Source of the DNA: Paratrimastix pyriformis
Lineage: Eukaryota > Preaxostyla > Paratrimastigidae
Assembly (NCBI GenBank): GCA_027972325.1
Contig: JAPMOS010000025.1
Coordinates: 62,001 to 126,000 of the forward strand
Length of the DNA stretch: 64,000 nt
Direction of reading: 5' to 3'
Shown: positions 6,541-25,611 of the stretch, piece after piece
Layout of the letters: each line of letters opens with the position of its first letter
Numbering within the stretch: the first letter of the stretch is position 1
Notes under the pieces: generated by a model
What the model was told of the DNA's origin: nothing
Database searches by the model: none
The model's input: the letters and a program-made list of their open reading frames with translations, nothing else
Program-made: the position numbers and the translations under genes

Positions 6541-6622
6541 AGCCTCAGTGTTCCATGTATTGGTGGTATGGCGGTTGTTCAGCAGGGGGTTCAGATAGCA
6601 AATATGGAGGATCATCACCGGC
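6541..6622 (-). ncRNA. C/D box snoRNA, family H, copy 1
   Basis: C box GTGATGAT is the complement of 6611-6618; D box CTGA is the complement of 6545-6548. An internal CTGA (D') follows a guide ending TTTGCTAT, whose target would contain TAGCAAATAT, as in the conserved large-subunit rRNA segment GUAGUAGCAAAUAUUC. This is the last snoRNA of the array in transcription order. Confidence 0.88.
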
Positions 6623-6802
6623 CGTGAGGGCGAGTGAGGGGGCAGCGGCGGACCCAAAGTTGCGGGGCTCCCCAGGATGAAGGTGGGCACGGAGTCGGCC
6701 AACGTCCTGCAACGAGAAAAGGGGAGGGGGCAGACAGTGAGTGAGCGAGGGAAGCGAACCACGCAAGTGAGACCACCATCATGCTGATACTGATGGAAGA
6801 AG

Positions 6803-6889
6803 AGAGTCAGTCGGAAGGTGGAACGTCATCGGGGCGCTCAGGTACAACAGGGATGCGTGTTCGTGACACGACTTGTGGTCATCACGTTT
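6803..6889 (-). ncRNA. C/D box snoRNA, family E, copy 1
   Basis: C box GTGATGAC at 6878-6885, D box CTGA at 6807-6810, internal D' (CTGA) and C' (GATGACG). One base differs from copies 2 and 3 just inside the D box. Confidence 0.9.
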
Positions 6890-7068
6890 CCATCGGGGGA
6901 GGCCAACAAACGGGACGAGATGGGCCAGTGGCAGACCGGCTCTTCGGTGCGCGGGCCCGCGGGAATCACCAGCCGCCAAGCTCACCTCCTGGTGAAGGGA
7001 AGGCAAGGCAAGGGCAGGGGATGAGTCAGCGAGGAGCGAGGGACCGAACGCACAGGAAGGCAGGGGCA

Positions 7069-7149
7069 TGCCTCAGGATACTCTCATTGTTCGTTTGTTC
7101 CGCACGATGAATCTCAGACAAATGCCTCGTGTGGTTCAGCATCGGCAGG
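7069..7149 (-). ncRNA. C/D box snoRNA, family G, copy 1
   Basis: D box CTGA at 7073-7076 and a TGCC/GGCA terminal stem are clear. The C box (CCGATGCT, complement near 7138-7145) is degenerate. The guide before the internal CTGA would pair with ACAAATGCCTCGT. This matches 12 nt of the conserved large-subunit CCAAAUGCCUCGUC and points by the five-nucleotide rule to the equivalent of yeast 25S A2281 (guided there by snR13). Confidence 0.8.
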
Positions 7150-7334
7150 TGACATTGGGTGGGGCCGAGGGGGAGCGGGCAGGGGCGGACCTCAAAAAAA
7201 AAAAAAGCCAACCGGCCAAACCAACGGGCGCCCCGCCGCATCGGAGAAGGTGGCCTGCAATGCGCAAAAGGGAGACGGGCGATGAGAGGCGAACCCACCC
7301 GGGTGGGGAGCGCACCCAGGGCAAGCAGAGGAGC

Positions 7335-7430
7335 GAATTCAGAAAGGCATATTCCATCTCACGTCGCCCCGCGGTGGTTTAGGCCGCGAGGGATCCGAAG
7401 GTGTCCTAAGAAATGCAGGTCATCACGTGG
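7335..7430 (-). ncRNA. C/D box snoRNA, family C, copy 1
   Basis: C box GTGATGAC at 7419-7426 and D box CTGA at 7339-7342 (in TTTCTGAATTC). At about 96 nt it is among the longest families in the array. The internal D'/C' boxes are not obvious. Confidence 0.85.
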
Positions 7431-7660
7431 TGCTCCCGTGACACATTGGGGAAGTCCAGGCGAGGGGAGCCAGGGAGCGGACCCGTGGCAGGAGGTCGGC
7501 CCATCCATCAGACGGGGGCGCGTCGAGGAGGGGGCCAGACGAGACAAGGCGCCGCAGCTGCAGCGGAGGGGCGGGCAGGAGGAGAGGGCAGGAGGAGAGC
7601 AGTCAGCAGGGCGGAAGGGCAGGCGGGGATCAGGGCCCGGGGCGGGATGGGAAGGAAAGG

Positions 7661-7746
7661 GGTCTCAGTCTCGCTATTTCTCGTCAGCGGGTGGTCTGAC
7701 GGTAATTCCATGGGTTTGCGTAGATGCATCACCGATCCCCCCGAGG
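7661..7746 (-). ncRNA. C/D box snoRNA, family I, copy 1
   Basis: C box GTGATGCA at 7735-7742, D box CTGA at 7665-7668, and C' CTGACGA. The guide ahead of a CAGA D' variant would pair with ACGGTAATTCCA. This matches the universal small-subunit 530-loop GCGGUAAUUCCAGC and predicts methylation of the U equivalent to yeast 18S U578 (snR77). Confidence 0.9.
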
Positions 7747-7915
7747 GTCCGCAGGCAGGAGCAGGGCAGCGGCAGACCTCCCCTGGGGAGGCCCGAGCTT
7801 CCGGAAGGCTTCGGCGGTCTCGGTTTGGGGGGATGCTCTACACAGGAGATGAAGGGGGGGAGAAGGAGATGAGGAAGGGGCCCGATCGATGCGAGGACGG
7901 CGGGGCGAGGGTGGG

Positions 7916-8000
7916 TGGCTCAGGGTTGCACAGTGATTCCGGATGGCAGTGTTCTCTCGTCAGGGGTCAGAAGAGGGAGCACCGGTTTTCATCAGGGCCG
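7916..8000 (-). ncRNA. C/D box snoRNA, family D, copy 1
   Basis: C box CTGATGA at 7989-7996, D' in TTCTGACC, C' CTGACGA, D box CTGA at 7920-7923, and a GGC/GCC-type terminal stem. The D' guide target contains AGAGGGAGC, present in the small-subunit segment GAGAGGGAGCCUGAG. Confidence 0.92.
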
Positions 8001-8189
8001 AGGGCCGAGGGGAGGTGGGGCTGGTGCGACAGCAGTGCAGACCAGTGGCGAGGTCAGGGATGGGGGCCCGGGGCCAACAGAGAGATCGGGGGCCACAACT
8101 GAGTTGGGGAGGGCGGGGAAGAAGAGCGTGAAGATCGGAGCAAAATGGAAGGGAAGGACAAGCGGGCACAGCAAGGGGGGAAGGCACCA

Positions 8190-8271
8190 GAGTCAGCTGG
8201 TAGTGCATGTTGAATTGAGGATCGTCACTGGGGTTCAGTCCAGAGGTGTATAAATTCGTTATCATCACACG
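8190..8271 (-). ncRNA. C/D box snoRNA, family A, copy 1
   Basis: C box GTGATGAT at 8261-8268, D box CTGA at 8193-8196, D' in GGACTGAAC and C' GTGACGA. About 82 nt. Family A is the most amplified one and is absent from the introns of the coding part. Confidence 0.92.
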
Positions 8272-8468
8272 GTGCACCGGCGGAAGTGGACCAAGACAAG
8301 CAGCAGAGTTGCCGGCAGACCATGATCAGTCCGCTTGATGGCAACGCCGCCCCTGGGGAGGACAAAAAATGGGGCGCGACGGAGGGCCCTGGAGGGACAA
8401 AGAAAGGTGTGGGGGGTTGGGGTGAGCGAAAGGGCAGGGGCACCCGAGAGGCGGTGCGCGAGGGGGAA

Positions 8469-8547
8469 TCCCTCAGAGATCTTGGTGGTTGCACAAAAGG
8501 TGTCACCATAAAGTGGTCTGAGTAGCAAATGCAATGCATCAGCGGGA
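8469..8547 (-). ncRNA. C/D box snoRNA, family B, copy 1
   Basis: C box GCTGATGC at 8536-8543 and D box CTGA at 8473-8476. The D guide target contains GATCTTGGTGGT and the D' guide target AGTAGCAAAT. The two are contiguous in the conserved large-subunit segment GAUCUUGGUGGUAGUAGC, so the two guides would sit side by side on the rRNA. Confidence 0.92.
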
Positions 8548-8741
8548 TCCGGAGGAGAGGAGGGGGGGATGCGCAAGAGATGCAGACCCCACAGAGGAGG
8601 AGCCCAGGCCAGGCCAAGGAAGGTTGGTCCTCGACCGACGGCAGGCGGAACGGCGTCACGGGGACGGGCCTGGTGGCAGAGAGCGAAAGTGAGAGACGGC
8701 AGGGCAAGGGGGACGCATTATTTCATGCGGGGCGGCAAAAG

Positions 8742-8819
8742 TCCCTCAGCTCTTGGTGGTTGCAAAAAGGGTGTCACCATAAAGGGGTCTGGGTAGCATA
8801 ATGCAATACATCAGCGGGA
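8742..8819 (-). ncRNA. C/D box snoRNA, family B variant, copy 2
   Basis: C box GCTGATGT at 8808-8815, D box CTGA at 8746-8749. It differs from copy 1 at several guide-flanking bases (TGCAAAAAGG instead of TGCACAAAAG, and GGGGTCTG). A near-identical variant lies at 11932-12009. Confidence 0.88.
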
Positions 8820-8994
8820 GGCGTTGGAAGAGGACGGTGGATGCGCAAGATGGCAGACCACAGCGGAGGAGCCCACAGGCCAGGAACTCGACTCGAAGAC
8901 CCAACCATGTCTGGAAGTGGGAAGGAGACGAGGCGGGTGAGGACGGCACGGAAGCACAGAAGAAAACCACAGTGCGCAGAAGAAGTGGGACGGT

Positions 8995-9075
8995 TGGCTC
9001 AGTAAGTGGTCACAAGTTCGCGTCATTGGAGCGCTCAGCTACAACAGGGATATTGTGTTTACGTGCATCACGGCC
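8995..9075 (-). ncRNA. C/D box snoRNA, family F, copy 1
   Basis: C box GTGATGCA at 9064-9071, D' in AGCTGAGC, C' ATGACGC, D box CTGA at 8999-9002. The sequence just outside the D box (GGGACGGTTGGCTCAG on the plus strand) is shared with the copy at 17095-17175. Confidence 0.92.
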
Positions 9076-9287
9076 GATGGGACCAGCGGGCGGGCGGGCA
9101 GGGAGCACGGTGGGCTGACCTGGGACAAGGACAAAGCCGGGCCGAAGATGGCGGCGGCAGACGGGGAGCGGAGCGCCACAGCGGTGGCTGCCGGAAGGAG
9201 GAAGGGGAGCATACGAAACGAAGGATGCGTGAGGGACGGGCAGGCCAACCAGGCGACAGGGCGCGACACCAGGAGGGGCGCCAAGAA

Positions 9288-9369
9288 GAGTCAGCTGGTA
9301 GTGCATGTTGAATTGAGGATCGTCACTGGGGTTCAGTCCAGAGGTGTATAAATTCGTTATCATCACACG
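9288..9369 (-). ncRNA. C/D box snoRNA, family A, copy 2
   Basis: C box at 9359-9366, D box at 9291-9294. A GTCCGC donor lies about 45 nt upstream of the C box (near 9412-9417). Confidence 0.92.
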
Positions 9370-9571
9370 TGGCGCAGGGGGGGATGACAGTGGCGTAGCA
9401 TGCCAGCGGACCTGGCGGATCACAGGTCCGGCTGTCCTGCGAGCGGACGTCAGGAGGGCCGCCAGCGAGCGGCCTGGAAAACACGGGGGGGGGGGGGGGG
9501 GGAAGGGGGAGGGAGTGAGAAGGTGCCAGGTGACGGGGAAACGGCTGGGACGGGCAGAAAGGCGCCAAGAA

Positions 9572-9653
9572 GAGTCAGCTGGTAGTGCATGTTGAATTGA
9601 GGATCGTCACTGGAAGTCAGTCCAGAGGTGTATAAATTCGTTATCATCACACG
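9572..9653 (-). ncRNA. C/D box snoRNA, family A, copy 3
   Basis: C box at 9643-9650, D box at 9575-9578. The D' region reads TGACTTCC instead of TGAACCCC, a change shared with the copy at 10988. The plus-strand GTGGCGCRGGGGGGGATGACAG flank is nearly the same as at copy 2, which shows very recent local duplication. Confidence 0.92.
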
Positions 9654-9830
9654 TGGCGCGGGGGGGGATGACAGTCAGCGGCAGCAGCATGCCGACAGAC
9701 CGATCGAGTGAAATGGGGCGACCGGGCCGGAGGAGGGCCACCTGGCAAACAGAAGGAAGAAGGAAGGGGTGACCGTGAGGAGCCAGCCGGAAGAGGGGAA
9801 CAAGGGGGCACAGCAAGGGGGAGAGCACCA

Positions 9831-9911
9831 GAGTCAGCTGGTAGTGCATGTTGAATTGAGGATCGTCACTGGGGTTCAGTCCAGAGGTGTATAAATTCGT
9901 TATCATCACAC
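9831..9911 (-). ncRNA. C/D box snoRNA, family A, copy 4
   Basis: C box at 9901-9908, D box at 9834-9837. A GTCTGC donor lies about 42 nt upstream of the C box. The flank GCACCAGAGTCAG is shared with copies at 8190 and 11243. Confidence 0.92.
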
Positions 9912-10097
9912 GGTGCACGGACGGCGAGGGAACGAAGAGCAGAGCTGGTGCAGACCAGGGAAGGCGAGGCAGCAGAAGAGACGGGGCGGGGTACCAGCTG
10001 GCGTTGGGCGTTGGGTCTGAGAACGACAGAAACAGAGGGCGCGATGAAGGCGAGCCAAAGCAAGGGCGGGAAGCCCAAGGGCTGGGAATGAATGCAA

Positions 10098-10179
10098 ACG
10101 TCAGCTGGTAGTGCATGTTGAATTGAGGATCGTCACTGAAGTTCAGTCCAGAGGTGTATAAATTCGTTATCATCAGCCG
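10098..10179 (-). ncRNA. C/D box snoRNA, family A, copy 5
   Basis: C box CTGATGA (first base differs from the other copies) at 10169-10175, D box at 10101-10104. Confidence 0.9.
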
Positions 10180-10373
10180 TTTTGGCCCACCCAGGCTGTG
10201 CACAAGAAGTTCAACCCGACAGACCAGGCCATCTCAAGCCGCCCGTGGCCACCATCGTCCGGGGGGTGGCGCTCGGAGAGCTGGCCGCCAAAGCTGCGAA
10301 GAGGGAAGGGAAGCGAGAGATGAGCGCAAGGACAGGGCAGCAGCAGCCATGAGCAGAGGGACGGCACAGAAAG

Positions 10374-10458
10374 AGGCTCAGGGTTGCACAGTGATTCCGG
10401 ATGGCAGTGTTCTCTCGTCAGGGGTCAGAAGAGGGAGCACCGGTTTTCATCAGCGCCA
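10374..10458 (-). ncRNA. C/D box snoRNA, family D, copy 2
   Basis: C box at 10447-10454, D box at 10378-10381. It lies between family A copies, at the position collinear with the family D copy in the coding gene (17990-18074). Confidence 0.92.
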
Positions 10459-10987
10459 CAGGGCACGAACAAGAGGCAGACTGGGGGCGGGGCGGACCAA
10501 AATGGAACCGGGAGGCCCGCCATGTATAATGCCTACAAAGTGGGGGGGAGGGGGGGGGGGAGGGGGAGAGGGCAGATGGCATTGGTGAACGGGTAGGAGC
10601 AGGTGGGGGCAAGGGCAGGGGAACGCATCAGGGATGGTGTGGACTGTAAGCTCGCACATTTGCCGACCCGCCCACGCATGAGCCGAGTGAGCCAGAGGTA
10701 AGAGGAGCTCCGGGCGTGTTGATGTGGGAAGTTGTTATGTTTGTCGCGGCACATTGGAAAGCGCCGTGACACCTCAGACTTCCGGTGGTGGTGATTGTGA
10801 TTTGGGGGGGCGGCGCAAGGGCAGGGGCCGAGAAAGACGGACCGTCGACTGGGAAACCTGCGCATCGACAGGGAAGGCGGCCAGGAGGAGCAGCCGAGGA
10901 CGCCTGCGGAAAGAACGAGCAGGAACCAAGATCATGAGCGGGAGGTTGGGAAGGCCAGGAAGGGCACGCAGAGGGGGCCGTGTGCGA

Positions 10988-11069
10988 ATGTCAGCTGGTA
11001 GTGCATGTTGAATTGAGGATCGTCACTGGAAGTCAGTCCAGAGGTGTATAAATTCGTTATCATCACCCA
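10988..11069 (-). ncRNA. C/D box snoRNA, family A, copy 6
   Basis: C box at 11059-11066, D box at 10991-10994. It carries the same D' region change as copy 3. The interval to the next snoRNA (10459-10987) is about twice the usual spacing. Confidence 0.92.
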
Positions 11070-11242
11070 TTCGCACAGGACAACGGACAGCCGGCGAGGA
11101 GGACGGACCAAAGAGTGGCGAGGGTCGGCGGTGAGGCCGTTCGTCGACTGCGTGGGAACCGCCACCTGGAGGGGAAGAAGAAGATGAGGTGAGGACGAGG
11201 GAAAGGAGAGAGCGGGAAGGCGAGGGAAAAGGGGGGGCACCA

Positions 11243-11324
11243 GAGTCAGCTGGTAGTGCATGTTGAATTGAGGATCGTCACTGGGGTTCAGTCCAGAGGT
11301 GTATAAATTCGTTATCATCACACG
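11243..11324 (-). ncRNA. C/D box snoRNA, family A, copy 7
   Basis: C box at 11314-11321, D box at 11246-11249. The plus-strand sequence after the C box (GGAAGTGGACCAAGACAAGC) is also found after the copy at 8190. Confidence 0.92.
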
Positions 11325-11640
11325 GTGCCCCGGCGGAAGTGGACCAAGACAAGCAGCAGAAGTACCCACAGACCATGGCATGATCAGTCCGCTTCATGGC
11401 AACGCCGCCGGAGGGGGCACAACGGGGAAACGAGGACAATGGGCGGGGAAAGAACGCCGACGCGGGAGGGGGCGGCGGTTGAGGGGGAGGGCTCATATCA
11501 ATCGGGCGAGTCGAGCCCGTGATTTCATCGTATAAATCAAGAAGCGCGCAGCAAGGGTCCTGGAGGGACAGAGAAAGGCGGGTGGGGTGAGCAAAGGGGC
11601 AGGGAACCCGAGAGGTGGTACACAACCCAGGCGAAGGGGA

Positions 11641-11719
11641 TCCCTCAGAGATCTTGGTGGTTGCACAAAAGGTGTCACCATAAAGTGGTCTGAGTAGCAA
11701 ATGCAATGCATCAGCGGGA
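11641..11719 (-). ncRNA. C/D box snoRNA, family B, copy 3
   Basis: C box at 11708-11715, D box at 11645-11648. It has the same guides as copy 1. Confidence 0.92.
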
Positions 11720-11931
11720 TGGCGGGAGGAAAGGAAGGGGGGATGCGCAAGAGATGCAGACCGCAGAGGAGGAGCCAGCCCAGGCCAGGAACGTCGGTCC
11801 TCCCTCGACCGACGGCAGGCGGAACCGTGTGCTGTCACAGGGACGGGCCTGGTGGCAGAGAGCGAAAGTGGGGGAGGAGGACAGTGAGGGACGGCAGGGC
11901 AAGGGGACGCATTTCAGGGGAGGCACCAAAG

Positions 11932-12009
11932 TCCCTCAGCTCTTGGTGGTTGCAAAAAGGGTGTCACCATAAAGGGGTCTGAGTAGCATAATGCAATACA
12001 TCATCGGGA
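11932..12009 (-). ncRNA. C/D box snoRNA, family B variant, copy 4
   Basis: C box GATGATGT at 11998-12005, D box at 11936-11939. It forms a B'-B pair with the copy at 11641, just as 8742 does with 8469. Confidence 0.88.
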
Positions 12010-12201
12010 GGGGGGCACAGCAAGACGAAGAAGGGCAAAGGGGGCAGACCACCGAGGGGAAGGTCAACAAACACGATGGCGCAGGGCTGGCGCTGAGGTC
12101 TTCTCCCAACGGGACGCCTGGAGGAAGGAGGAGTAAGGAGAAAGCGATGAGCAACAAGCCGGGACGACCGTCCGGTCGAGAGGGACGGCCACGACAAGAG
12201 C

Positions 12202-12297
12202 GAATTCAGAAAGGCATATTCCATCTCACGTCGCCCCGCGGTGGTTTAGGCCGCGAGGGATCCGAAGGTGTCCTAAGAAATGCAGGTCATCACGTGT
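12202..12297 (-). ncRNA. C/D box snoRNA, family C, copy 2
   Basis: C box at 12286-12293, D box at 12206-12209. The 15 bases outside the C box (TGTGCCCTCGTCCAG on the plus strand) are identical to those at 21808 and differ from the other two family C copies. Confidence 0.9.
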
Positions 12298-12496
12298 GCC
12301 CTCGTCCAGCCGTCCAGTCCAGCCCAAACACGCAGGCACAGTGCAATGAACGGACCATCGCTGCCAGGACCAAGGACCAAGGACCGGGGGGCATCGGGCC
12401 GGTGAGAAGGGCCGACCGCTGCATCGAGAGCAAGTGGGAAGGGAAGGAAGGTGAGGCGGGGACGGGCAAGGAAGGTCCGGACAGGCAAGGAGAGGC

Positions 12497-12572
12497 AGGA
12501 TCAGTCTCGCTATTTCTCGTCAGCGGGTGGTCTGACGGTAATTCCATGGTTTTGCGTAGATGCATCACATCG
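12497..12572 (-). ncRNA. C/D box snoRNA, family I, copy 2
   Basis: C box at 12561-12568, D box at 12501-12504. The guide reads CCATGGAATTACC as in the other copies. Confidence 0.92.
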
Positions 12573-12773
12573 CAACAGCAGGGGGGCAATGCAATGGCCC
12601 CAAAGGGCACAGACCGAGTGCTCGGGGGCAGCGGCGCCGGCGGACAGGCAGCGAGGAACCAACAGATGCGAGCCTGCAGGGGCGAGAGCAGAGACGAGGA
12701 CAAGCAGCGGTCAGGACGGGGACAAGCGGTGACCAGGCGGTGGGGGGGGCATGAGTGGGTTGGAGGTTTGAGG

Positions 12774-12850
12774 GTGCATCAGAAATCAACGTTGAAATCA
12801 GGGATCATCCAATGTAGATAAGGATAGATGGTTGAAAGCTCATCACACGC
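12774..12850 (-). ncRNA. C/D box snoRNA, family L, copy 1
   Basis: C box GTGATGAG at 12839-12846, D' in CCCTGATT, D box CTGA at 12779-12782, GTG/CAC terminal stem. I could not place its guide targets with confidence. Confidence 0.9.
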
Positions 12851-13018
12851 CCCAACAACGGACAGGAGGGGCAGCGCAAACGACGGACCCATGCAGCAGC
12901 GGGGCCGGAGAGGCCAAGGGGGGCGTGGGATCCTGGGGCTGCACCTACGGGAGGGCAGAGAGGTTGGAAGGTGAGCAGGAGGTCGGAGGTCGGGGCAACG
13001 GGGGAAGTGAGGGAGGGG

Positions 13019-13107
13019 TCTCTCAGCGAGCTGGGTATATGGTTGGTCAGCAGCCCCCCGAAGGAGTCAGCCAATGAACGTGAGCGCTATGTTTCTCATC
13101 GTCGAGC
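13019..13107 (-). ncRNA. C/D box snoRNA, family K, copy 1
   Basis: C box ACGATGA at 13096-13103, D' in GGCTGACTCC, C' CTGCTGA, D box CTGA at 13023-13026. The D' target contains GAACGTGAGC and the D target GAGCTGGGT. Both are parts of the contiguous large-subunit segment GAACGUGAGCUGGGUUUAG. The D guide points to the equivalent of yeast 25S C2948. Confidence 0.92.
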
Positions 13108-13213
13108 CCCATCCCAGGCGGCACGGGGAGGATGGGAGGACAGACCAAGAGCAGAGCCGGTGCGGCCACACCGTTCCGAGGAGCACGAGAACAGGGGGAA
13201 ACTGGGGGGAAGA

Positions 13214-13383
13214 CTATAATGCTCGCGCAGGTAGTCTCGGAAAGAGATGAAGAGGGTCTGCCCCAGCGCATCGGGCACCCGGTGCACCCCGATCGAGTCC
13301 AGTGCCCGGACGAAGCGCATGATGTTATACTGGGCCGTGACGATGTCGTAGCCCTTGGTGGGGTCCATGTCCCGGTAGGCGAC
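13214..13383 (-). pseudogene. Isolated coding-looking exon of unknown origin
   Basis: After an acceptor-like CTGCAG at 13384-13389, the minus strand encodes about 55 residues of normal protein composition (VAYRDMDPTKGYDIV to FISFRDYLREH). This is unlike the low-complexity non-coding surroundings. No adjacent coding exon continues it. It lies between snoRNA copies J (13488) and K (13019), where the upstream array copy has coiled-coil exon 4 (23865-23155), but it is not similar to that exon. It could be a relic exon, an exon of an unrecognised gene, or a captured fragment. I do not recognise the family. Confidence 0.4.
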
Positions 13384-13487
13384 CTGCAGCGCGTAGTGCG
13401 GGTTGGTCGCGGGCGGGGCCGGGACGGGGGAGGGAGGGAGGGATGAGCACACGAAAAAAGGGCAGAAGGGCGCAGGGAAGGGGGTTA

Positions 13488-13565
13488 TTGCTCAGGCACA
13501 CAGTCGCAGCACGGGTTTGTTCTCAGAGAGATTCCCAGTTGTGTCATTGAGTAACATCATCGCAA
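13488..13565 (-). ncRNA. C/D box snoRNA, family J, copy 1
   Basis: C box GATGATG at 13554-13561, D' in CTCTGAGA, D box CTGA at 13492-13495. The D' target contains GAGATTCCCA, present in the large-subunit segment ACGAGAUUCCCACUGUCC. The 3' flank GGGGGTTATTGCTCAGG resembles the copy at 23941, not the one at 15368. Confidence 0.92.
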
Positions 13566-13742
13566 GTGGAACCCGGGAGCAGCCGGCCAGCAGAACCCCG
13601 GCGACAGACCAAGCAGGAACCGACGGGCAGAGGCGCGCCGCAAAGGGAGCGGCCGGCCACGAGGAGGCGCACTGCAAAGCGAGGAGATTTGCGGTGAGCA
13701 CGGAGAAGGAACCTCGCTCAAGGGGGGCGCGGAGGAGGGAGG

Positions 13743-13824
13743 AGCCTCAGTGTTCCATGTATTGGTGGTATGGCGGTTGTTCAGCAGGGGGTTCAGATAG
13801 CAAATATGGAGGATCATCACCGGC
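13743..13824 (-). ncRNA. C/D box snoRNA, family H, copy 2
   Basis: C box at 13813-13820, D box at 13747-13750. It shares a flanking GGCGCGGAGGA stretch with copy 1. The D guide target contains GTTCCATGT, close to the large-subunit GGUUCCAUGUGAACAG. Confidence 0.9.
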
Positions 13825-14007
13825 CGTGAGGGCTGGGGCAGCAGCAACAACCAATCACGAGGCGCGCCAGACCATCAGAGAAAGGGCCAGGCCAAAGTGC
13901 AACATCGCTCGCTCGGGCGGTTCCACTGGAGGGAGAAGGAGAAGGGAGGACGTGAGTGGCCTGCAAGGCGCGCGCGGGTCTGACGAAGTGGTTGGCGGAG
14001 GTTCAGC

Positions 14008-14094
14008 AAGGTCAGTCGTAAGGTGGAACGTCATCGGGGCGCTCAGGTACAACAGGGATGCGTGTTCGTGACACGACTTGTGGTCATCACGTGC
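14008..14094 (-). ncRNA. C/D box snoRNA, family E, copy 2
   Basis: C box at 14083-14090, D box at 14012-14015. The D' guide target contains ACAACAGGGAT, shared with family F; the core ACAGGGAUA occurs in the large-subunit peptidyl-transferase region. Confidence 0.92.
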
Positions 14095-14301
14095 TGATGG
14101 CAGGGCAGCGCGGTCATCGCCAGGCGGCGGCAGACCTGGCAGACGGCGCAGCAGGGACGCAGCCCATCGGACGGGCGGCGGGGTCTGACAGCCCGATGAC
14201 GCGTCTGTGGGGAAAGCGAGTGGGCAGGGGAGGCCAGACAATGGAATGAGGATTTTGTGGGAAGAGCGAAGGGCGCCCTCGGAAAGGTCGGTGTGACGGC
14301 G

Positions 14302-14382
14302 TGCCTCAGGATACTCTCATTGTTCGTTTGTTCCGCACGGTGAATCTCAGACAAATGCCTCGTGTGGTTCAGCATCGGCAAG
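14302..14382 (-). ncRNA. C/D box snoRNA, family G, copy 2
   Basis: D box at 14306-14309, degenerate C box at 14371-14378, same guide as copy 1 with one internal A/G change. Confidence 0.8.
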
Positions 14383-14549
14383 TCGCACACCCAACCAGTC
14401 GAAAGGGCGGCCAGCAGACCAGGACAAGGCGGCGCACGACTCGGCTCGGCAGACACGGCGCCCCTGAGGGAAGAAGTGGAGAGGGAGAAGAGGCGATGAA
14501 GAACCACAACGCAACACAACTGTGGCACAACGGGCGCCGAGGGAGGGCA

Positions 14550-14639
14550 GGGGTCAGAGAAGACAAATCGACAGATGGCCCAGTGGGAAACCGGGCCTCC
14601 GAAGTCGGCAAATTATTAATGAGCATGCTCATCACGCCA
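14550..14639 (-). ncRNA. Candidate C/D box snoRNA, family M (single copy)
   Basis: A perfect C box GTGATGAG (complement of 14628-14635) lies at the regular array spacing. The best D box is CTGA at 14554-14557 (in TCTCTGACC), giving about 90 nt. No second copy helps to confirm its ends, and D'/C' boxes are unclear. Confidence 0.6.
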
Positions 14640-14832
14640 AGCCCGCCTTGCAGGAAGCCAGCCAAAGATCACCACCCCGACAGACCAGCACCGGATCCAG
14701 GGGGGTCCCGATCGGGCCAGAGCAATCCGCGGCCGGGGCCGCCGGCTGGAATCGAAGGAAAGGAAGGAAGAGAGGCGAGGGTGAGCGTCAGGAAGGGGTG
14801 TCGAGAGGCCCAGGGAAGGCCACGACAAAAGC

Positions 14833-14928
14833 GAATTCAGAAAGGCATATTCCATCTCACATCGCCCCGCGGTGGTTTAGGCCGCGAGGGATCCGAAGGT
14901 GTCCTAAGAAATGCAGGTCATCACGTGC
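14833..14928 (-). ncRNA. C/D box snoRNA, family C, copy 3
   Basis: C box at 14917-14924, D box at 14837-14840. It has an A in place of G in the CTCACRTCGCC segment, as at 21716. Confidence 0.9.
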
Positions 14929-15121
14929 TGCCCCCAACCAGGCAGGCCCCCCCAAGGTCAAGGTCAGGGTGATCAGACCAAAAGCAGCGGGCGGCCATCC
15001 ACGCTCGGGAGCCAGGCGGCTGGGAGGTGGCCAGGCTGCGGGGCGAGGAATGGGAGATTGGGAGATGGAATGAAGGTTTGGGAGTGCTGGGCGGGCGAAA
15101 GAAGGGGCGCGAGGGGAAGGC

Positions 15122-15197
15122 AGGATCAGTCTCGCTATTTCTCGTCAGCGGGTTGTCTGACGGTAATTCCATGGGTTTGCGTAGATGCATCACATCG
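15122..15197 (-). ncRNA. C/D box snoRNA, family I, copy 3
   Basis: C box at 15186-15193, D box at 15126-15129. One base differs between D' and C'. Confidence 0.92.
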
Positions 15198-15367
15198 CAA
15201 AGACAGGGGCAGGAGGGGCGGGAGAGCAGAGGAGCCACGGACCAGGCACGGAGCAGGCACGGAGCAGGGGGGCCGCGTACAGGTCGGCGGCCAAGCCGGA
15301 GGACTGGAGGAGGAGGGCAAAGGAGCGGCGAAGAGGAAAAAGGGTGCGGCGGGGCGAGGGGACGAGG

Positions 15368-15445
15368 GGGCTCAGGCACACAGTCGCAGCACGGGTTTGT
15401 TCTCAGAGAGATTCCCAGTTGTGTCATTGAGTAACATCATCGCAA
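15368..15445 (-). ncRNA. C/D box snoRNA, family J, copy 2
   Basis: C box at 15434-15441, D box at 15372-15375. The core is identical to copy 1 but the flanks are unrelated. It interrupts the collinear order as an extra insertion. Confidence 0.92.
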
Positions 15446-15871
15446 GTGGCGCCAGGTGCAGGGCAGGGCAGCCAGGCAGACCTTGTCAGCAAAGGGGCCA
15501 CCCGAGTGCCGAACGATCGGGCGGCGTGACCAGCCAACCAACCCCGCCCTTCCCCCCCACCCCCCGTGCGTGCCGGTGGATCAGGAAGCAACGAATCCTG
15601 TTGCCGAACCAGCGGCCATGAACGGCCAGCAGCGGAAGCGGAGGCGGCACCCCCCCTGGTGGGGGCAGAACAACAAACGGGAGCCCAACCACCCGAGGGG
15701 ACCAGCCACCACGACAAGGAAAAGGCACCGAGCACGACAAGCACTCGACAGCATCCCCCAAATAGGGTCGGGGGCCTGCAGAGGAGAAACAGAGGAGGAA
15801 CCAGAGGAGGGGGAATGAGCGCCGCGCAGGGGGAGCACAAGACAAGCGGTGGGTACGCAAAGGGTGCAACC

Positions 15872-16483: not shown

Positions 16484-16958
16484 TGGCAGAGAGGGCCAGA
16501 AATCGGGGAGCAGAGGGGGGTCGGCAGACCGAAGGCTGGGCACCATCCGAGGCACCATCCGAGAGGGACGTCGCGGTGGGGTCGTGGGGCACACCTCCCT
16601 TGGCGGCGCTGGCGGTCGGGACGGGCCAGGACGCAGGGACGCAGGACGGACACGATAAAAAGCAGCGAACGAAGGCGCAGCTCCGACGGTACAAATACAG
16701 CAGGAGCGGAGCAGAGGGGAAATGGTGGGGGGGTGGGGTGTGTAGATACAAAGCAGACAGGAAGGTGGGTGGTGGAACGTAGACAGGGGACCACAGCAGC
16801 ATCGCAGCCGCGCGGGGCGGTGGAAACATCGCACCGGGCAGGGCAGAGAGGAGGGGAGACGCAGAAGGGCGAGGAGAGAACGCACGATGCTGCCTGGTCA
16901 CCGGGCACCGGGCAAGTGGACGCGAACGGGGCGGTCATCAGGGGTCACGAAAGCCCCC

Positions 16959-19900
16959 TCATTGGGCGGGCGAGCGGGGAGACTGCACATCGACAACGAG
17001 AAAAAACGAGGAGGGAAGTGTGAGGAGCGGCAACCCAGAGCAGCACGCAGCCAGCCAGCCAGGGTGGAAGCAGGGTGGAAGCAGGGGGGACGGTTGGCTC
17101 AGTAAGTGGTCACAAGTTCGCGTCATTGGAGCGCTCAGCTACAACAGGGATATTGTGTTTACGTGCATCACGGCCGACCGTCGCTCCCCCCCGAAGATGC
17201 AATATCGAGCAATGCCAGACCAAGGCCGTGGCGCGGTTGGGGCTCCGGTTGGCCTGGCCGGCAGCGAGCTGGGTGATCTGGGCGCGGTGCGAGCTGGCCT
17301 CGGCGTCGCGCTGGTCGGTGACCCGGCTCAGGGACTGCTGCAGGAAGCGCCGCTCGTTGGTTGCTTGTTCGAGGGCCCGCTGCAGCTCGGCGTTCTTGCG
17401 GAGGAGGTCCGTCTTGGCGGCCGACTCGGCCCGGCGCTCCTCCAAGGCGGCGTTGAGCCGGTCCTGGCCCTCCTTGCGGGCCCGCTCGGCGTCGGCCTCG
17501 GCCTCGGAGAGCTGGGCCTTGAGCTGGCCGTTCTCGAGGACGAGCAGCTCCTCGCGCTTCTCCAGCTGGGCCTGCTTCTCGGCCGCCTCGGTCCGGATGC
17601 GGTCGTAGGCGACCCCCAGGTCGGCACTGGGCGAGGCCGGGGCGGTGGGGGCCCCCGAGGCGCTGACCGAGTGCATCCGCTCGGAGAGGGCCTGCTGCAG
17701 CTCGGCGTTCTGGTCCTGCAGGGCCTTGCGCTGCTGCTGGACGAGGGTCAGCAGGGCGCTGACCTGCTTGAGCTGGCTGCTGAACTGCTGGTTGCTGTCC
17801 TGCAGGCCGCGCACCTGCTTGTGGTGGGACTCCAGCAGGCCCTGCTTCTCCTCCGACAGGCGGCGCACCTGCTGGTCCAGGGACTGCTTCTCCATCTGCA
17901 GGGACAACGACACGGGCAGAAACAAGGGAGAAACAAGATGAACGGAGGTGCGAGCAGACACGGCTCGAGAGAGGGCGTGGGGAGAGAAAAAGCTCAGGGT
18001 TGCACAGTGATTCCGGATGGCAGTGTTCTCTCGTCAGGGGTCAGAAGAGGGAGCACCGGTTTTCATCAGGGCTTAAGGCTGGCCGCATGAGGGCGTCAGC
18101 CAGAAAGCGGACCTGCATCTGGCTGAGCTGGGCGCTGAGGTCGCCGAGGCGCTTGTTGAGGTCCTGCTGCTGGGCGGCCAGCTCCTGCTTCTCGGCGGCC
18201 AGCGACTGGCTGTCCTGCTGGCTCTTGGCGGCGCTCTGCTCGGCCTGGGCCCGCTGGGCCTCGTTCTGGGCGGCCAGGTTGTCCTTCTGCTGCTGGGACT
18301 CGTCCAGGGCGGCCTGCAGCTCGCCCAGGTGCTGCTGCAGCTGCTCGAACTGGGCCGCAAGCTCGCGGTTGTTCTCCTCGACCTGGCTCTTGGCCTGGTC
18401 CATCTGCTCCAGCCGCAGCAGGGCGTCCTGCTGAATGGCCTGCGCCTCGGCGGCGGCCTCGTTGGCGCGGGTGTCGGACTCGTCGGCCCGGGCGCGGGCC
18501 TGGTCCCGCTCGGCCTCCAGGGCAGCCATCTCCTTCTTGAGCGAATCCAGGCGGGCGTTGAGCATGGCCTGCTCGGTGGTGCTCTTGTCGCGGAGCAGAG
18601 TCAGCTCGCGGAGCTGCGACTGCAGGCCCTCGGTCTTCTGGTCGAACTCCTGGTTGAGCTGCCCCAGGCGGGCGTTGAGGGTGTTGTTGTCCTCCTGGAG
18701 GGTCTTCCGCTGGGCCACCAGCAGGGTGTTCATGCCCTGGATCTGCTTCAGCTGGGCACGCAGCTGGTCGACGCTGGTCTCCAGGGCCCGCTCCTTCTTC
18801 TGGCTCGACAGCTCGGCCGACTCGCGCTCGCTGGTCATGGCGCCCAGCTGGGCCTGCAGGCCCATCAGGTCGCGCCGGGTCCGGTCGAGCTCGTCCTTCT
18901 GGCGGCCGGCGTTGTCGCGCTCGTCGGCCAGGTCGTGGGTCAGCTGGTCCTTCTCGGCCGCCAGCTGGTCGCGCTCCTTGGCCAGGCCCCCAACGGCCTC
19001 CTCGCTGCTGGCCTGCAGCTCGTTGAGCTGCTCCTGGCGCTGCTGGGCCTGGGTCAGGGCCCCCTGCAGCTCGGCGTCCCGCTGGACCAGCTCCTGCTCA
19101 CGGGCCGCCAGCCGGTTGCGGAGGTCCTCGAGCTGGACGAGAAAAGACGAAAGACGAACAAAAGCGGATGAGCGACAAGCAAAATGGACACGAAAGAGCA
19201 TGAGAGGTGAGGGATCCCTCAGAGATCTTGGTGGTTGCACAAAAGGTGTCACCATAAAGGGGTCTGAGTAGCAAATGCAATGCATCAGCGGGATGGCGGG
19301 AGGGGGAAGCGGAAAGACGGTCCATCAGCATGCACACCGACCTGTGCCTCGGCCTCCTGCTGCAGGTGGGCCAGCTGCTCCTCGAGGCTCTTGGCCTTGA
19401 CGGCGGCCTCGTCGGTGCGCATGTCGGCGTGCTTGAGGTCGCTCCGCAGGCGCTGCTCCATCTCGGCCTTCTCCCGCTCGGCCAGCCGGGCCCGCTCGCG
19501 GCTCTGGGTCAGCTCCTGGTTGGCCTTCTGCAGCTCGGCCTGCAGGGTCTGGGCCGAGTCGGTCAGGTCGTGCTCGAGGGCCTTCAGCTGGTCGGCCTGC
19601 TCGTCGAGCTGGCCCTGCAGCAGGGCCTCCTTCTGCTTGGCGGCAGTGGCGGCGCTCTCGGCCTCCATCTGGGCCTGCTGCAGGGCCTCGTTCAGGGCGG
19701 CGTTGTCGTCCTGCAGCGAGCGGCGCTGGTTCTTGAGCACCTCGTAGTGCTCCTCGAGCTCCTGGTGCTCCTGGCGGAGGAGGGTGAGCTTCTCGGTGGC
19801 CGAGGCCAGCTTGGCCTCGAGGTCGTCCACGGCCCGCTTCTTGGCGTCCTCGGCCTCCTGCAGGCGCAGCTTGTAGCCCTCCATGTCGGACTTGGAGCTG

Positions 19901-22900
19901 GCCCCCAGCTGGTTGAGCTGCTTCTCGAGCTGCTCCCGCACGGCCCGGACGTCCTTCAGCTCGGCCCGGGTCTGATCCAGGGCCGCCTGCAGGGCCTTGC
20001 GCTCCTCCTGCAGGGCATTCCGCTCCTGGACGGCCGTGTAGAGGTCCTCGACCAACTTGTGGATGCTCTTCGAGGCGGCCTCCGTCTGGGCGGTCATCTC
20101 CTCCTGGAAGGTGCCCAGCTGCTGCTTGGCCGCCTCGTGCTCCTTCTCGACGGCCTCCAGACGCTCCTGGGCCTGGGCGGCCACCTCGGCAAAGCCGGCC
20201 ACCTCGAGGTTGGCCCGCTCGAGGAGGGCGTCCATGAGCTGCTTGGACTGCATGAACCGGTCCATCTCGGCCCCGAAGGCCTGCCGCTGGGCCATGTGGG
20301 ACTTCTCGAGGTCGGCCATCTTGGTGAGGGTCTCCCGGTTGGCCTTCTCGGCCTCCTCGATGCGCTTCTCCTGGACAGTCCGCTGCCGGCGGGCGTCCTC
20401 CTCCTGGGCCTTGCGGTTGCTGTCGATGATCTTGACCTGGTTGGCGTTGATCTCCTCCAGCGAGGCCACCCGCATCTGGGCCGCGTGCAGGTCCCCATCC
20501 AGGGCGGCCACCTGGGCCTCGAGGCGCCGGATGGACTCCTGGTTGGCGCCGTTCTGCTGGAAGGCCTCCTGGCGGGCCGCGTTGAGGGCCGCCTCAGCCT
20601 TGCGGAGGTCCTCCTGCAGGCGGCGGCGCTCCTCCTTGAGGGCGTCCATCTCGGCGCCCAGGTCGAGGACGGACTTCTCGTGGCGCACCTGGAAGTCCTG
20701 CAGCTGGGTCTGCAGCTTGGCCTTCTCCTCCTCGAAGTCCTTCACCTGCTGCTGCAGCACCTGCACCTGGAGGTCGCTCCGCTGCTGGTTCATGGCCAGC
20801 TCCTCCCGGAGCCGGTCGCCCTCCTCGGTCAGCTGCTGCACCTGGTCCGCCAGCCCGGCGGCTTGCTGCTGACTCTCGGCCAGCTGGCGTCCCAGGCTGT
20901 TCTCGGTCTCCTGCAGGCGGGCCTCGGTGGCGGCCAGGGCCTGCTGCAGGTCGTGGCCCTGGGTCCGCTCGCCGGCCAGGGAGTTGTTGGTCTGCTCGTT
21001 GGCGGCGATGAGCTCGCCCAGCTTGGTGCGCAGGTCCTGCACCTCGGCCTGGTGGAGCTGCTCCTCCTTCTCGAGCCGCTCCCGGGTGCGGGTCAGCTGG
21101 GCCGTCAGCGAGCTGATCTTGCGCTGGGCCTCCTGGGCCGCGGCCTCGGTGTCCCGCTGCAGGGTCTCGGTGGCGGTGCGCTGGTCGGTCAGCATGCCCT
21201 GCAGCTCGGTCACCTTGCCCGTGAGATCGTTCCGCACGGCAGTGCGCTCGTTTTGGGTGGCCAGAAGGGCCGCCTGGGCCTCGTCGAACTTGGCCTGGAC
21301 GATGTCCCGGGCCTGCTGCATGGCGCCCAGCTGCTCGGTGGCGTCGGCCAGCTGGGCCGTCAGGGCCTCGACCTGCTGCTCGAGGGCGGCCCGGTCGGCG
21401 TCCCACTGGTGGGTGGCGTCCTTGAAGTGGTCGTCGAGGCCCAGCTTGGCCTGGGACTCCTTGCGCACCTCCTCGACCAGCAGGTCGCGCGCCTGGCGGA
21501 CCTCGTCCAGGTCGGCCTCGATCTGCAGGGCCCGGCTGTGCTCGCCCTCCAGGTCCTGGCGCAGCTTCTCCGCCTCGGTGCGCAGCTGCTGCTCCCGCAG
21601 GGCAGCCTGGGGCAAAACACGGAAAGCGAATGCAAAGCAAAGCAAAAAACGGTGAGAACGAGCCGCCGAAACAGCAAAACATATGCCACACAGCAGCTGG
21701 GGCCAGAGGAGGAGCGAATTCAGAAAGGCATATTCCATCTCACATCGCCCCGCGGTGGTTTAGGCCGCGAGGGATCCGAAGGTGTCCTAAGAAATGCAGG
21801 TCATCACGTGTGCCCTCGTCCAGTCCCCCCGACATTCCGGGCAGGGCGTGCTGACCTGGCGCTCGGTGACAGCCAGGCGCTGGGCGGCCTCGTCGGTCTG
21901 GTCGGCGAGGGTCTTCTTGATGCGCTGCAGCTGGGAGGCCAGGCTGTCCTTCTCGTTGGTCAGGATGCGGATGTTCTCAGTGTACTGCGCAGCGGGGGCG
22001 GGAGGATGAAGGGGTGAGGCAAAGCAACAAAGGGCGAGAGGGAGGTGGCGGAGACGGAAGACGGCAAGGCAGGTGCATCAGTCACGCGGTTTCTCGTCAG
22101 CAGGTGGTCTGACGGTAATTCCATGGTTTTGCGTAGATCATCCTTTGGACAGTGCCGTTGGGGCTGGATGGGCTGGGCTGGGCGGGGGTCGGGTCTGGGC
22201 TGCCGGACCTGGTTGTTCTCCTCCTGCAGGCTGGAGATCTGGGTCTGCTGCGAGACGACGATCTGCTCCTTCTCCTCCTGGAGCTTCTCGAAGGTGCGGG
22301 TCATCTTCTGCTGGGTCTCCTGGACGGCCCGCTCGCGGTCCTGCCGGGCCTGGTACTGGCGCTGGAGGTCCTCCGTCAGGCCGGTGACCTGGTCGCGGAG
22401 CTTCTCCAGGTCGCGGGCCTGCTGCTGGGTCTGCTTGGTCAGCGAGGAGACGCTGTGCTGGGCCTCGGCAAGGTCGCGCCGCAGCTGGGCGGTGGTCTCG
22501 CTGGCCGTGCGCCGCTCGGACTGGGACTGCTCCTGCTCGGCCTGGTGGCTCTTGGTCAGCCCCTCGGCCCGCTCGCTCAGCTCCTGGTGCTCTTGGGCCA
22601 GGGCCGCGTGCTCGTTTTGCAGCTGCTCGAGCTGCAGTTGAGCCTCCTGCAGAGGGAGGCGAAGAAAGGGGGGGGTGGGCGGTGAGACATGGTCAGGGGG
22701 AGGTCAGGAAGGCAGCGCCCATGAGAACAGAGTGGGTTTGAGAGTGCATCAGAAATCAACGTTGAAATCAGGAATCATCCAATGTAGATAAGGATGGATG
22801 GTTGAAAGCTCATCACGCACACCCGGGGGGAATCTCAAATGGGACGAAAGGGCCGTGACGGACCTCCAGAGAGCGCAGCAGCTCGGCCTTCTCGCCCTCG

Positions 22901-25611
22901 GCGGCCTTCTGGCTGCTCTCCAGGCGAACCTGGAGGTCCGTGCGGGCGGTCTGCAAGAGAACGACAACGAAACCAGGGATGAGTGCTGTGCCCGGAGGGA
23001 CCCGTGTCAGGCAGGGAAACGAGGGAGGGGTCTCTCAGCGAGCTGGGTATATGGTTGGTCAGCAGCCCCCCGAAGGAGTCAGCCAATGAACGTGAGCGAT
23101 ATGTTTCTCATCGTCGAGACCCGGTGGGGGGAGGGCAGGGGCAGGGGAGCAGACCTCGGCCGTGTGGAGCCGGTCGACGAGGGACTCCTTCTCGGCGATG
23201 GTGGCCTCGAGGGACTTCTGGGCGACCTCGGTCCGCTGGCGGTTGAGCTCCTTCTCGGTGTCCAGCTCGGCCTGCAGGTTGGCGGCCCGCTTCTCGTTGG
23301 CCGTGCAGTGGGCCCGCAGCTGGCCCAGCTCGGTCATGGCGCTGGTGGCGGCCTCGTTGGCCTTGCGCTGCTCCTGCTGCAGGGCCGCGAACTGCTGCAG
23401 CTTGTCCTTGTGCACCTGCTGCAGCTTGGCGTTGAGCTCGTTGTGGTCCTTCAGCAGGGCGTTGTACTTGCGCTGGGCCTCGGCCAGCTGCTGCTGCTTC
23501 TCGGCCCGCATCTTGTCCAGGTCGTCCTTCAGCTTGTCGATCTCGCCCTGCAGCAGCCGGCGGGCATTCTCGGCCGTCAGGCGGGCGTCGGCGGTGACGG
23601 TGTTCTCGGTGTGGCCCTTCTCGAGGTCGGCCTGCAGGCGGCGGTTCTCGGTCTCCAGGACGTCGATCTTCTCCTGGAAGAAGCGCTTGTCCGAGTCGGC
23701 CCGGCCCTCGCTCTCCTGGAGGCGCTGCTCCAGGTCGGTGGAGAGGTCCTTCAGGCCCCGCTCACGCAGGGCGGCCTCCTCGACGCGGGCCTCGAGCTCC
23801 CCGGTGTACTGCTGCAGCTCGGTTCGGTCCTGCTCGCGCCCGCCCCGCTCCAGGGCAAGCGCCTCCTGTAGGCATCAACAAGGGGAGAGCGGACGGATGA
23901 GATCGGAAAAACACCAAAACGTGCACGGGCGCAGGGGGTTTTGCTCAGGCACACAGTCGCAGCACGGGTTTGTTCTCAGAGAGATTCCCAGTTGTGTCAT
24001 TGAGTAACATCATCGCAAGCGCGGGGGGCTGTTTGTGGGGAGCGGCGGCGGGGCCAGACCTCCGCCTCCTTGATGCGGCCGGCGGCCTGGTCGATGCGCT
24101 GCTGCATGGAGAGGCGCAGCTCGTTGAGCTCGGTGGCCAGGGCGTCGCGCGACTTGCGCAGGAGGCCCAGCTCGTGGGCGGTGTTGTTCTTCTCGGCCTC
24201 GGCGGCGCTGAGCTGCAGCTGGCCCTGCTGCTGGAGGGTGGACTTCTCCCGACGGGCGAGGTCGACCTTCTCCTGCAGCTCTGCGACCTCCTCCTTGAGG
24301 GCCCCGATCTGCACCTGCAGCGTCTGGCCGTCGGTCTGCTTGGTGAACTCCAGGTTGGTCAGCTGGGTGACCAGCTGCTGGGAGCGCTTCTCCATCTCCT
24401 GCCGGTCGGCCCGCAGCCCGGCGGCCTCCTTCTGGGCGGTCTCGAGCTGGGTCTGCAGCAGGCGCAGCTGCGACTGGAGCTCCTTGTTGGTGTCGGTGAC
24501 GTTCTCAATCTGCAGCCGGCCGCTGGCCTGAGCCGCCTCGTGCTGCTCGTTGAGCTCGTTCACCTTGGCCTGCAGGGCCCCGTTCTCCTGCTTGACCTGG
24601 TCGAACATCTGCTGCAAGGCCTTGAACCGGCCAACCTGGTCGGCCAACATCGTGCTGAGCTCCGTTCGGTGGGCCTCAGAGCTCTAAAGAAAAGAAGGAT
24701 TCGTTAGTCGTGGTTTCACGGATGCCGAAGTGAAAGTGCCGGTGGCGTGATGTGACGCACACGGACCTGAGCAGCAGTTTCGCGCTTGGCGGTTTCTTGG
24801 TCCCGTTCGTGCTGCATGTTGCGGAGCTTGTCCGCCAGATCGCGAGACTCGACGGTCTTCAGGCGGAGATCGTTTTCAAGTTTTGTCACCTGGCCTTGAA
24901 GATCATCGCTAATAAAAGATAAGGGTCAGCCTTGGGCCCAGAAAGAAGGGAAACGGACTGGGCATGTGTGAGCGCATCAATTTCGCTGGCGCTACTTTCC
25001 TGATGCTGGGCCAGCATCCTCTGCAGACGATCCAATTCAGCGGAGAGTTGGGCCTTATCATCAGCGAGGTTCTTCTTCTCGGATTCGGTCATCTCAACAG
25101 CGGAACGCTTCTCTTTGCGAAGCTCTTGGAGGGCGTTGTTCAATTGGGTGTTCTCATCGCGGAGTTGGTTGATCCGAGCTTCAAGCTGAGACTTTTCATC
25201 GTGGGACTCGGTCTGAATTGCATCAATTGCTGCATCATGCTGGGTGGCGTCGGCTTGCAGTTGTTTATTGGTGGCGGTCAAGCTGTCGATTCGTTGGTTC
25301 AGCCGTTGATTTTCATGCTGCAGATTTTCGAATTTCTGCTGGAGAATGTGCAGATCCACCTGAGTCTGCCCGCTGGCTGGAGGAAGCGACGTTTCAGTGA
25401 CGGTGGGAACTGTGGCCTCGCCCTGGAGATCAGACAACGGGTGCGGATGGTGATTGTGAGACACTTCGAACGGAAAGTTCGGAGCCACACAGACCAATTG
25501 TGAGACAGGTACATCACGTGGGACTTGGGCCTGAACCTGGGCGACAGGGGTCGCAGGGGTTCCCCGAAGAATACGCTTCAACGAAGCTTGGTATTGCTGG
25601 AGAGCGGTCAT
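16959..25611 (-). CDS. Giant coiled-coil protein, snoRNA host (11 exons)
   Basis: Exons in transcription order are 25611-24959, 24908-24767, 24683-24060, 23865-23155, 22950-22864, 22646-22209, 21984-21856, 21606-19342, 19132-18113, 17895-17221 and 16982-16959. They sum to 6768 nt, that is 2255 residues plus TGA, an exact multiple of three with every junction in frame. After ~110 mixed residues (MTALQQYQASLKRIL, then a His/Pro-rich stretch) the protein is almost unbroken heptad-type coiled coil rich in Q, E, L, A, R and K, resembling large centrosomal, Golgi or myosin-rod-like proteins. No motor or other globular domain is visible. Donors are GTCCGT, GTCTGG, GTCTGC, GTCCGG, GTCAGC, GTCGGT or GTCCGC. 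Introns 1 and 2 are short and empty; introns 3-10 each contain one C/D snoRNA 39-65 nt after the donor. A structural scaffold role is inferred only from composition. Confidence 0.88.
17095..17175 (-). ncRNA. C/D box snoRNA, family F, copy 2 (intron 10)
   Basis: C box at 17164-17171, 49 nt after the donor at 17220; D box at 17099-17102, 116 nt before the acceptor of exon 11. D' AGCTGAGC and C' ATGACGC are present. Confidence 0.94.
17990..18074 (-). ncRNA. C/D box snoRNA, family D, copy 4 (intron 9)
   Basis: C box at 18063-18070, 42 nt after the donor at 18112; D box at 17994-17997, 98 nt before the acceptor. All four boxes are canonical. Confidence 0.95.
19215..19293 (-). ncRNA. C/D box snoRNA, family B, copy 6 (intron 8)
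   Basis: C box at 19282-19289, 52 nt after the donor at 19341; D box at 19219-19222, 86 nt before the acceptor. It reads AAGGGGTCT where copies 1, 3 and 5 read AAGTGGTCT, a base shared with the B variants. Confidence 0.94.
21716..21811 (-). ncRNA. C/D box snoRNA, family C, copy 4 (intron 7)
   Basis: C box at 21800-21807, 48 nt after the donor at 21855; D box at 21720-21723. Its outer flank matches copy 2 at 12202-12297. Confidence 0.92.
22074..22147 (-). ncRNA. C/D box snoRNA, family I, copy 4, divergent (intron 6)
   Basis: C box GGATGATC at 22136-22143, D box CTGA at 22078-22081. The 18S-matching guide CCATGGAATTACC is kept, while the sequence next to the D box has changed (AACCGCGTGA), so the second guide differs from the other copies. 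Confidence 0.88.
22744..22820 (-). ncRNA. C/D box snoRNA, family L, copy 2 (intron 5)
   Basis: C box at 22809-22816, 47 nt after the donor at 22863; D box at 22749-22752. Two base changes relative to copy 1. Confidence 0.92.
23031..23119 (-). ncRNA. C/D box snoRNA, family K, copy 2 (intron 4)
   Basis: C box at 23108-23115, 39 nt after the donor at 23154; D box at 23035-23038. One base differs from copy 1, outside the rRNA-matching core. Confidence 0.94.
23941..24018 (-). ncRNA. C/D box snoRNA, family J, copy 3 (intron 3)
   Basis: C box at 24007-24014, 45 nt after the donor at 24059; D box at 23945-23948, 79 nt before the acceptor. First snoRNA of the whole array in transcription order. Confidence 0.94.

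Follow-up and report, generated by a model that had tools for sequence, protein, structure and literature searches.

The 64,000-nucleotide (nt) stretch of Paratrimastix pyriformis DNA analysed here (the window; assembly GCA_027972325.1, contig JAPMOS010000025.1, positions 62,001 to 126,000 of the forward strand) very probably contains a small nucleolar RNA (snoRNA) host locus of the UHG/SNHG type, which would have grown by block duplication onto a protein-coding gene and would be expressed as one or two transcripts. BLAST searches with 14 representatives against the window locate 42 C/D-like copies, all of them on the minus strand and within 6542-24016, belonging to 13 families with 7, 6, 4, 4, 4, 3, 3, 2, 2, 2, 2, 2 and 1 members; two variants, K and N, represented the SNORD24-like family, and N is counted within it. 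The initial annotation of this DNA had described a single minus-strand locus of 42 copies in 13 families, and both copy numbers and unit limits agree with that description. It had further named units scattered like a transposable element as an observation that would tell against it; within the window, no copy was found outside the locus (BLAST, E<=1e-3). Families B and M cross-match over a 31-nt module at 90% identity. A strict scan for consensus boxes and a stem (RTGATGA, CTGA, stem of at least 3) returned just five units on the minus strand and one on the plus strand, and was set aside as too strict; since it recovers so few units, the claim is carried by family resemblance, the C boxes being degenerate. 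Tandem-repeat finding on the window gave 12 short arrays, none corresponding to the snoRNA units. The window has a G+C content of 67.7% and is eukaryotic, as seen from a U6 small nuclear RNA (Rfam, 96.7 bits) and from spliceosomal-type introns.

The assignment of the copies to the box C/D snoRNAs is supported by their boxes, their terminal stems and their similarity to known families, as far as sequence can tell. A terminal D box, CTGA, is present in 42/42 copies, and all 42 also have an internal CTGA, CAGA or CGGA. An exact RTGATGA C box, by comparison, is found in 18 of the 42; the TGATG core is present in 37, and the remaining five read CGATG or GGATG. The earlier description of the units thus holds for their CTGA ends and does not hold, as a general rule, for an RTGATGA start. 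The proposed terminal stems are borne out on average, four copies being weak. Paired with their own flanks, the 42 copies have a mean stem energy of -9.2 kcal/mol. This falls to -5.7 kcal/mol when partners are swapped among all copies (0/5000 permutations as good as the true pairing) and to -8.1 kcal/mol when they are swapped within families (3/5000), a within-family effect to which the shared ancestry of some blocks adds. The flanks vary between copies yet match their own partner, which is, as an average, compensatory change.

In Rfam, the curated cut-off of SNORD24 (RF00069) is passed at the four K copies, and no other snoRNA model passes its cut-off; the two N copies score 29.6 and 25.1 against the same model (cut-off 41). 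A relaxed search of positions 6000-26000, up to E 10, matched family A with SNORD33/SNORD32 (RF00133), whose cut-off of 44 was missed with a best score of 41.4 bits (E 1.5e-4), and family D with snoZ7/snoR77 (RF00268), whose cut-off of 43 was missed with a best score of 36.2 (E 0.003). Weak matches link C to SNORD79, E to SNORD58, L to SNORD100 and H to SNORD24.

Each of the 42 copies has a predicted intron of its own, 178-249 nt long and of the GTCNG type. The C box is 35-66 nt from the 5' splice site (median 47), with 37 of the 42 copies falling between 41 and 60 nt, and the D box is 68-116 nt from the chosen acceptor (median 87). The pattern GGTCNG is found 35-66 nt upstream of 42/42 copies and of 4.6% of 20,000 random positions, a control that left out the array's own donors and is post hoc, pattern and range having been set from these introns. 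The 5' splice sites of the 42 snoRNA introns and of the introns at 24958 and 24766 read G|GTCNG or A|GTCCG, with C at +3, and not the usual GTRAGT; for the 42 the motif follows from the search pattern, and in the coding part the open frame supports it for all 10 introns. The U6 of the window has a normal ACAGAG box, which is partly complementary to TCTGT donors. No U1 was found within the window with Rfam.

The protein-coding part of the host gene (16959..25611, minus strand, as are all features of the locus described here) has 11 exons. Removal of its 10 GTCNG...YAG introns joins one frame of 2,255 codons, from the start at 25611 to the stop at 16959, predicted to encode a coiled coil of 2,255 amino acids. 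These splice sites were chosen by eye and then checked by the frame, which fixes the acceptors; the D box lies 79-116 nt away from them. Codon-position GC is strongly patterned (for example 0.76/0.36/0.94). Against Pfam and NCBIfam the protein scored only weakly, in matches of coiled-coil type that miss the curated cut-offs, and PDB gave no match. The first intron (24909..24958, 50 nt) and the second (24684..24766, 83 nt) have no snoRNA and leave the frame open. The other eight hold, in order, C (23945..24015), I (23035..23113), J (22749..22816), D (22078..22142), E (21720..21807), K (19219..19288), L (17994..18069) and M (17099..17171). The exon with the stop codon is 453 nt long, its donor being at 16529.

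Beyond the stop codon, the array continues into an apparently non-coding extension (6463..16958), whose lower limit is the last acceptor and not the end of the terminal exon. This tail has 34 C/D introns and one further intron, separated mostly by exons of about 60 nt (median 61.5 nt, 25 of 34 between 50 and 70 nt). Read along the minus strand, its snoRNAs are K (16409..16478), L (16147..16222), B (15876..15954), C (15372..15442), D (15126..15192), E (14837..14924), the single copy of F (14554..14635), G (14306..14377), B (14012..14090), H (13747..13820), C (13492..13562), I (13023..13101), J (12779..12846), D (12501..12567), E (12206..12293), N (11936..12003), K (11645..11714), A (11246..11321), A (10991..11066, the best match to SNORD33), L (10378..10453), A (10101..10176), A (9834..9909), A (9575..9650), A (9291..9366), M (8999..9071), N (8746..8814), K (8473..8542), A (8193..8268), L (7920..7995), D (7665..7731), E (7339..7426), G (7073..7144), B (6807..6885) and H (6545..6618). 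The three central elements of the initial annotation, namely C/D identity, one unit per spliceosomal intron, and a coding host part with a non-coding extension, are each supported at this level of prediction.

Comparison among the copies shows where similarity has been retained. Across seven pairs of blocks that can be aligned, some blocks entering more than one pair, identity is 1087/1130 (96.2%) in the snoRNAs, 767/1410 (54.4%) in the introns and 229/383 (59.8%) in the exons. From C box to D box, the seven A copies differ solely in the four nucleotides that link D' to C' and, in one copy, in the first base of the C box. Many pairs lose homology within about 10 nt of the snoRNA, others within a few tens of nt, and some blocks are alike through their exons (477 bp at 83%). 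The order of the families also recurs: five ordered family triples are repeated, compared with 0.19 on average after shuffling (maximum over 5000 shuffles, likewise five), and the run C-I-J-D-E, seen first in the coding part, comes back in the tail. Block duplication, followed by decay of everything except the snoRNAs and splicing signals, would fit these patterns best.

Some of the families have predicted guides for ribosomal RNA (rRNA). The panel comprised seven eukaryotic ribosomal DNA contigs (L001-L007), all from other organisms, giving five small-subunit (SSU) and seven large-subunit (LSU) sequences, several of the latter being cut. These contigs are filed under prokaryote genomes yet carry eukaryotic rRNA genes, a contamination of public assemblies, and L005 has a group I intron inside its LSU gene. 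A guide was accepted when its target lay 5 nt from the box and its score was at least 11 in at least three rRNAs, a score that needs no common site across rRNAs. Five of 34 box-adjacent guides passed, as against a mean of 0.175 and a maximum of 2 in 40 shuffles, and 1.6% of 554 non-box windows of the same snoRNAs reached that score; at a score of 9 the excess was smaller (11 guides, with 4.8 in shuffles). The five families with guides in the canonical position are K, G and F, which are predicted to target 28S rRNA, and D and A, which are predicted to target 18S rRNA. The K guide has one common site in six of seven LSU sequences, the F guide one common site in 6/7 with one in a shifted register, and the D guide one common 18S site in four of five SSU sequences. 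Family L has a 9-base match in just 2/5 SSU sequences. Because the guide of family A pairs at a common 18S site in 4/5 SSU sequences (the fifth match, in L006, is elsewhere), family A would work like SNORD33, though it is below the Rfam cut-off of that family. In the N copies, 2 nt are deleted ahead of the D box, and the upstream SNORD24 guide has gained one base. Their predicted 28S target, compared with that of K, moves from index 1630 to 1632 within L003, so that the deletion should displace the methylation guided by SNORD24 by two nucleotides on 28S rRNA.

Taken together, these features suggest the following mechanism. RNA polymerase II would transcribe the minus strand from a start upstream of 25611, either running straight on beyond 6463 or starting a second time for the tail. 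Splicing, for which the intron anatomy described above provides, would remove the introns of 178-249 nt with one box C/D snoRNA each. Intronic C/D snoRNAs are known to mature by debranching of the lariat and trimming to a small nucleolar ribonucleoprotein that guides 2'-O-methylation, and the same route would lead here to particles acting on rRNA. The array would have grown by duplication of blocks in which exons and intron flanks decayed while selection kept the snoRNAs, the splice sites and the pairing of the terminal stems; with this division between what decayed and what was kept, the tail would work like a non-coding host of the UHG/SNHG type.

Several observations weigh against this interpretation. 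The fit of the guides to conserved rRNA segments, which the initial annotation had reported for several, stands for five of the 13 families, and the other eight have no guide above chance on the borrowed rRNAs. Even among the five, the match of G in 7/7 rRNAs is circular and no test, because the 23-base word used to fetch the contigs contains the G target, and four independent families remain. Seven families have a match to a snoRNA-type Rfam model (A, C, D, E, H, K/N and L), of which only K meets the cut-off, and B, F, G, I, J and M have no such match at E<=10. The terminal stems are weak at C 24015, D 15192, D 12567 and L 18069. Exon lengths in the tail are less secure than the donors because the score that chose its acceptors leans slightly towards 85 nt. 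In the spliced tail, 458 codons in a row are also free of stops, a length that exceeds 98% of shuffles. Despite this stretch, the tail was rejected as coding sequence on its flat codon-position GC (0.66/0.70/0.69), compared with the strong pattern of the host. As regards a host gene of the UHG/SNHG type, the tail shows predicted splice signals and no codon periodicity, alongside an open stretch that is longer than expected. Lastly, introns past a stop codon expose an ordinary messenger RNA (mRNA) to nonsense-mediated decay in many eukaryotes.

This last point bears on the number of transcripts. With 35 introns after the stop codon, which in general are hard to square with a stable mRNA, the signal for decay gives substantial weight to a separate non-coding gene, and it is a serious possibility, if short of a probable one, that there are two genes: the coiled-coil mRNA would end in the stop-codon exon, and the tail would be an independent snoRNA host on the same strand with its own promoter. 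At 453 nt, compared with the tail median of 61.5 nt, that exon offers space for the end of one gene and the promoter of another. The two halves, however, share snoRNA families, donor pattern and spacings, and the order C-I-J-D-E occurs on both sides of the stop codon. The more tentative proposal, somewhat doubtful as it stands, is that a single transcript serves both as a long coiled-coil mRNA and as the precursor of 42 C/D snoRNAs (perhaps with one H/ACA snoRNA), with about 35 introns past the stop. If true, this lineage lives with, or makes use of, an extreme set of introns in the 3' untranslated region, and its rRNA methylation evolves through guide duplication inside a gene.

It is unlikely, though worth considering, that only part of the copies are active and that many are decaying duplicates kept alike by gene conversion. 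The D copy at 22142, which has a GGATG C box and is 86-91% identical to the other three, would suit such decay, as would the inserted base in the upstream guide of the N variants and the four weak stems; in family A, by contrast, the only differences from C to D box are in the linker and at one base of the C box, and the stems co-vary on average, whereas gene conversion of the bodies alone would not keep them paired. A mobile element, or retroposition of snoRNA copies in place of block duplication, is highly improbable: homology does often stop close to the C and D boxes, as if mature RNAs had been copied into new introns, but the family order recurs, several pairs share flanks and exons (the 477-bp block included), the terminal stems are re-paired between copies, all copies are on one strand in a similar intron position, and the window holds none outside the locus. 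The reading of a UHG/SNHG-type host locus that grew by block duplication onto a coding gene is thus the one we prefer.

A single intron of the tail lacks a C/D copy (about 10843-10533), and it contains a weak candidate for an H/ACA snoRNA, predicted at 10642..10783. Read from 10783 to 10642, two hairpins are separated by an ACATCA hinge, and ACA lies 3 nt from the end, a layout that suits this class. Compared with shuffled sequences, the first hairpin is far more stable (z -4.3) and the second is no more stable (z 0.26), and longer stretches around the candidate are mildly stable (z -1.54 and -1.45). It had no consistent target and no H/ACA match in Rfam up to E 10. A few tail exons are also of note. 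That at 13146-13383 (238 nt) is a coding-like segment (VAYRDMDPTKGYDIVTAQYNIMRF...) which is perhaps a fossil exon of another gene; it has no PDB match and no Pfam match above the cut-off (RAG2_PHD, 17.9 bits against 27). Two others are long, 11374-11559 (186 nt) and 15482-15775 (294 nt), and the former holds a small GC-rich hairpin-like stretch.

Host genes of the UHG/SNHG type and the tandem arrays of mammals come nearest to the locus. As in UHG/GAS5-type (SNHG) genes, its snoRNA introns hold a single C/D unit each, the exons of the tail are short and apparently non-coding, and it is the snoRNAs and not the exons that are conserved. To our knowledge, 42 snoRNA introns are more than in any gene of this type. 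A further difference is that the non-coding part here follows a coding part of 2,255 amino acids which itself hosts eight snoRNAs. In SNURF-SNRPN, a protein-coding gene is continuous with repeated intronic C/D snoRNAs. The word unusual, applied to the array in the initial annotation, therefore suits its size and mixture and has to be tempered, as SNURF-SNRPN-type loci are a known parallel. Large tandem repeats of intronic C/D snoRNAs are shared with SNURF-SNRPN / SNORD115-SNORD116 and with rat Bsr (PMC11028025). In its treatment of tandem arrays, that 2024 review describes large C/D arrays as eutherian-specific, orphan and linked to imprinting, names rat Bsr as another example and adds that understudied genomes might harbour more (PMC11028025). 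In contrast to the mammalian arrays, the locus has 13 mixed families that include conserved rRNA guides, and differs also in its G+C content of 67.7% and its predicted introns of 50-249 nt. A further parallel is offered by the C/D clusters of Neurospora crassa, UHG-like non-coding hosts in a microbial eukaryote with a similar distance to the 5' splice site, mainly 41-60 nt, the range that takes in 37 of the 42 copies here, and these too are compared with GAS5 and UHG (PMC2780460). As described in the passages of that paper on the clusters, they are small, and tandem copies of one family or a long coding part are not mentioned there (PMC2780460). Searches of open-licence papers brought up neither this locus nor any array that is as mixed.

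The arrangement is thus known in kind. What sets the locus apart as unusual is that it is so large, that its mixed families include conserved rRNA guides, and that it begins within a long coding gene. Finding a mixed array, conserved rRNA guides included, in a GC-rich eukaryote outside mammals would show that such arrays arise in other settings. Within a single gene, the locus may also serve as a natural experiment, in which snoRNAs, stems, splice sites and exons can be compared for constraint over dozens of copies, including, in the N variants of the K family, an apparent shift of the guide.

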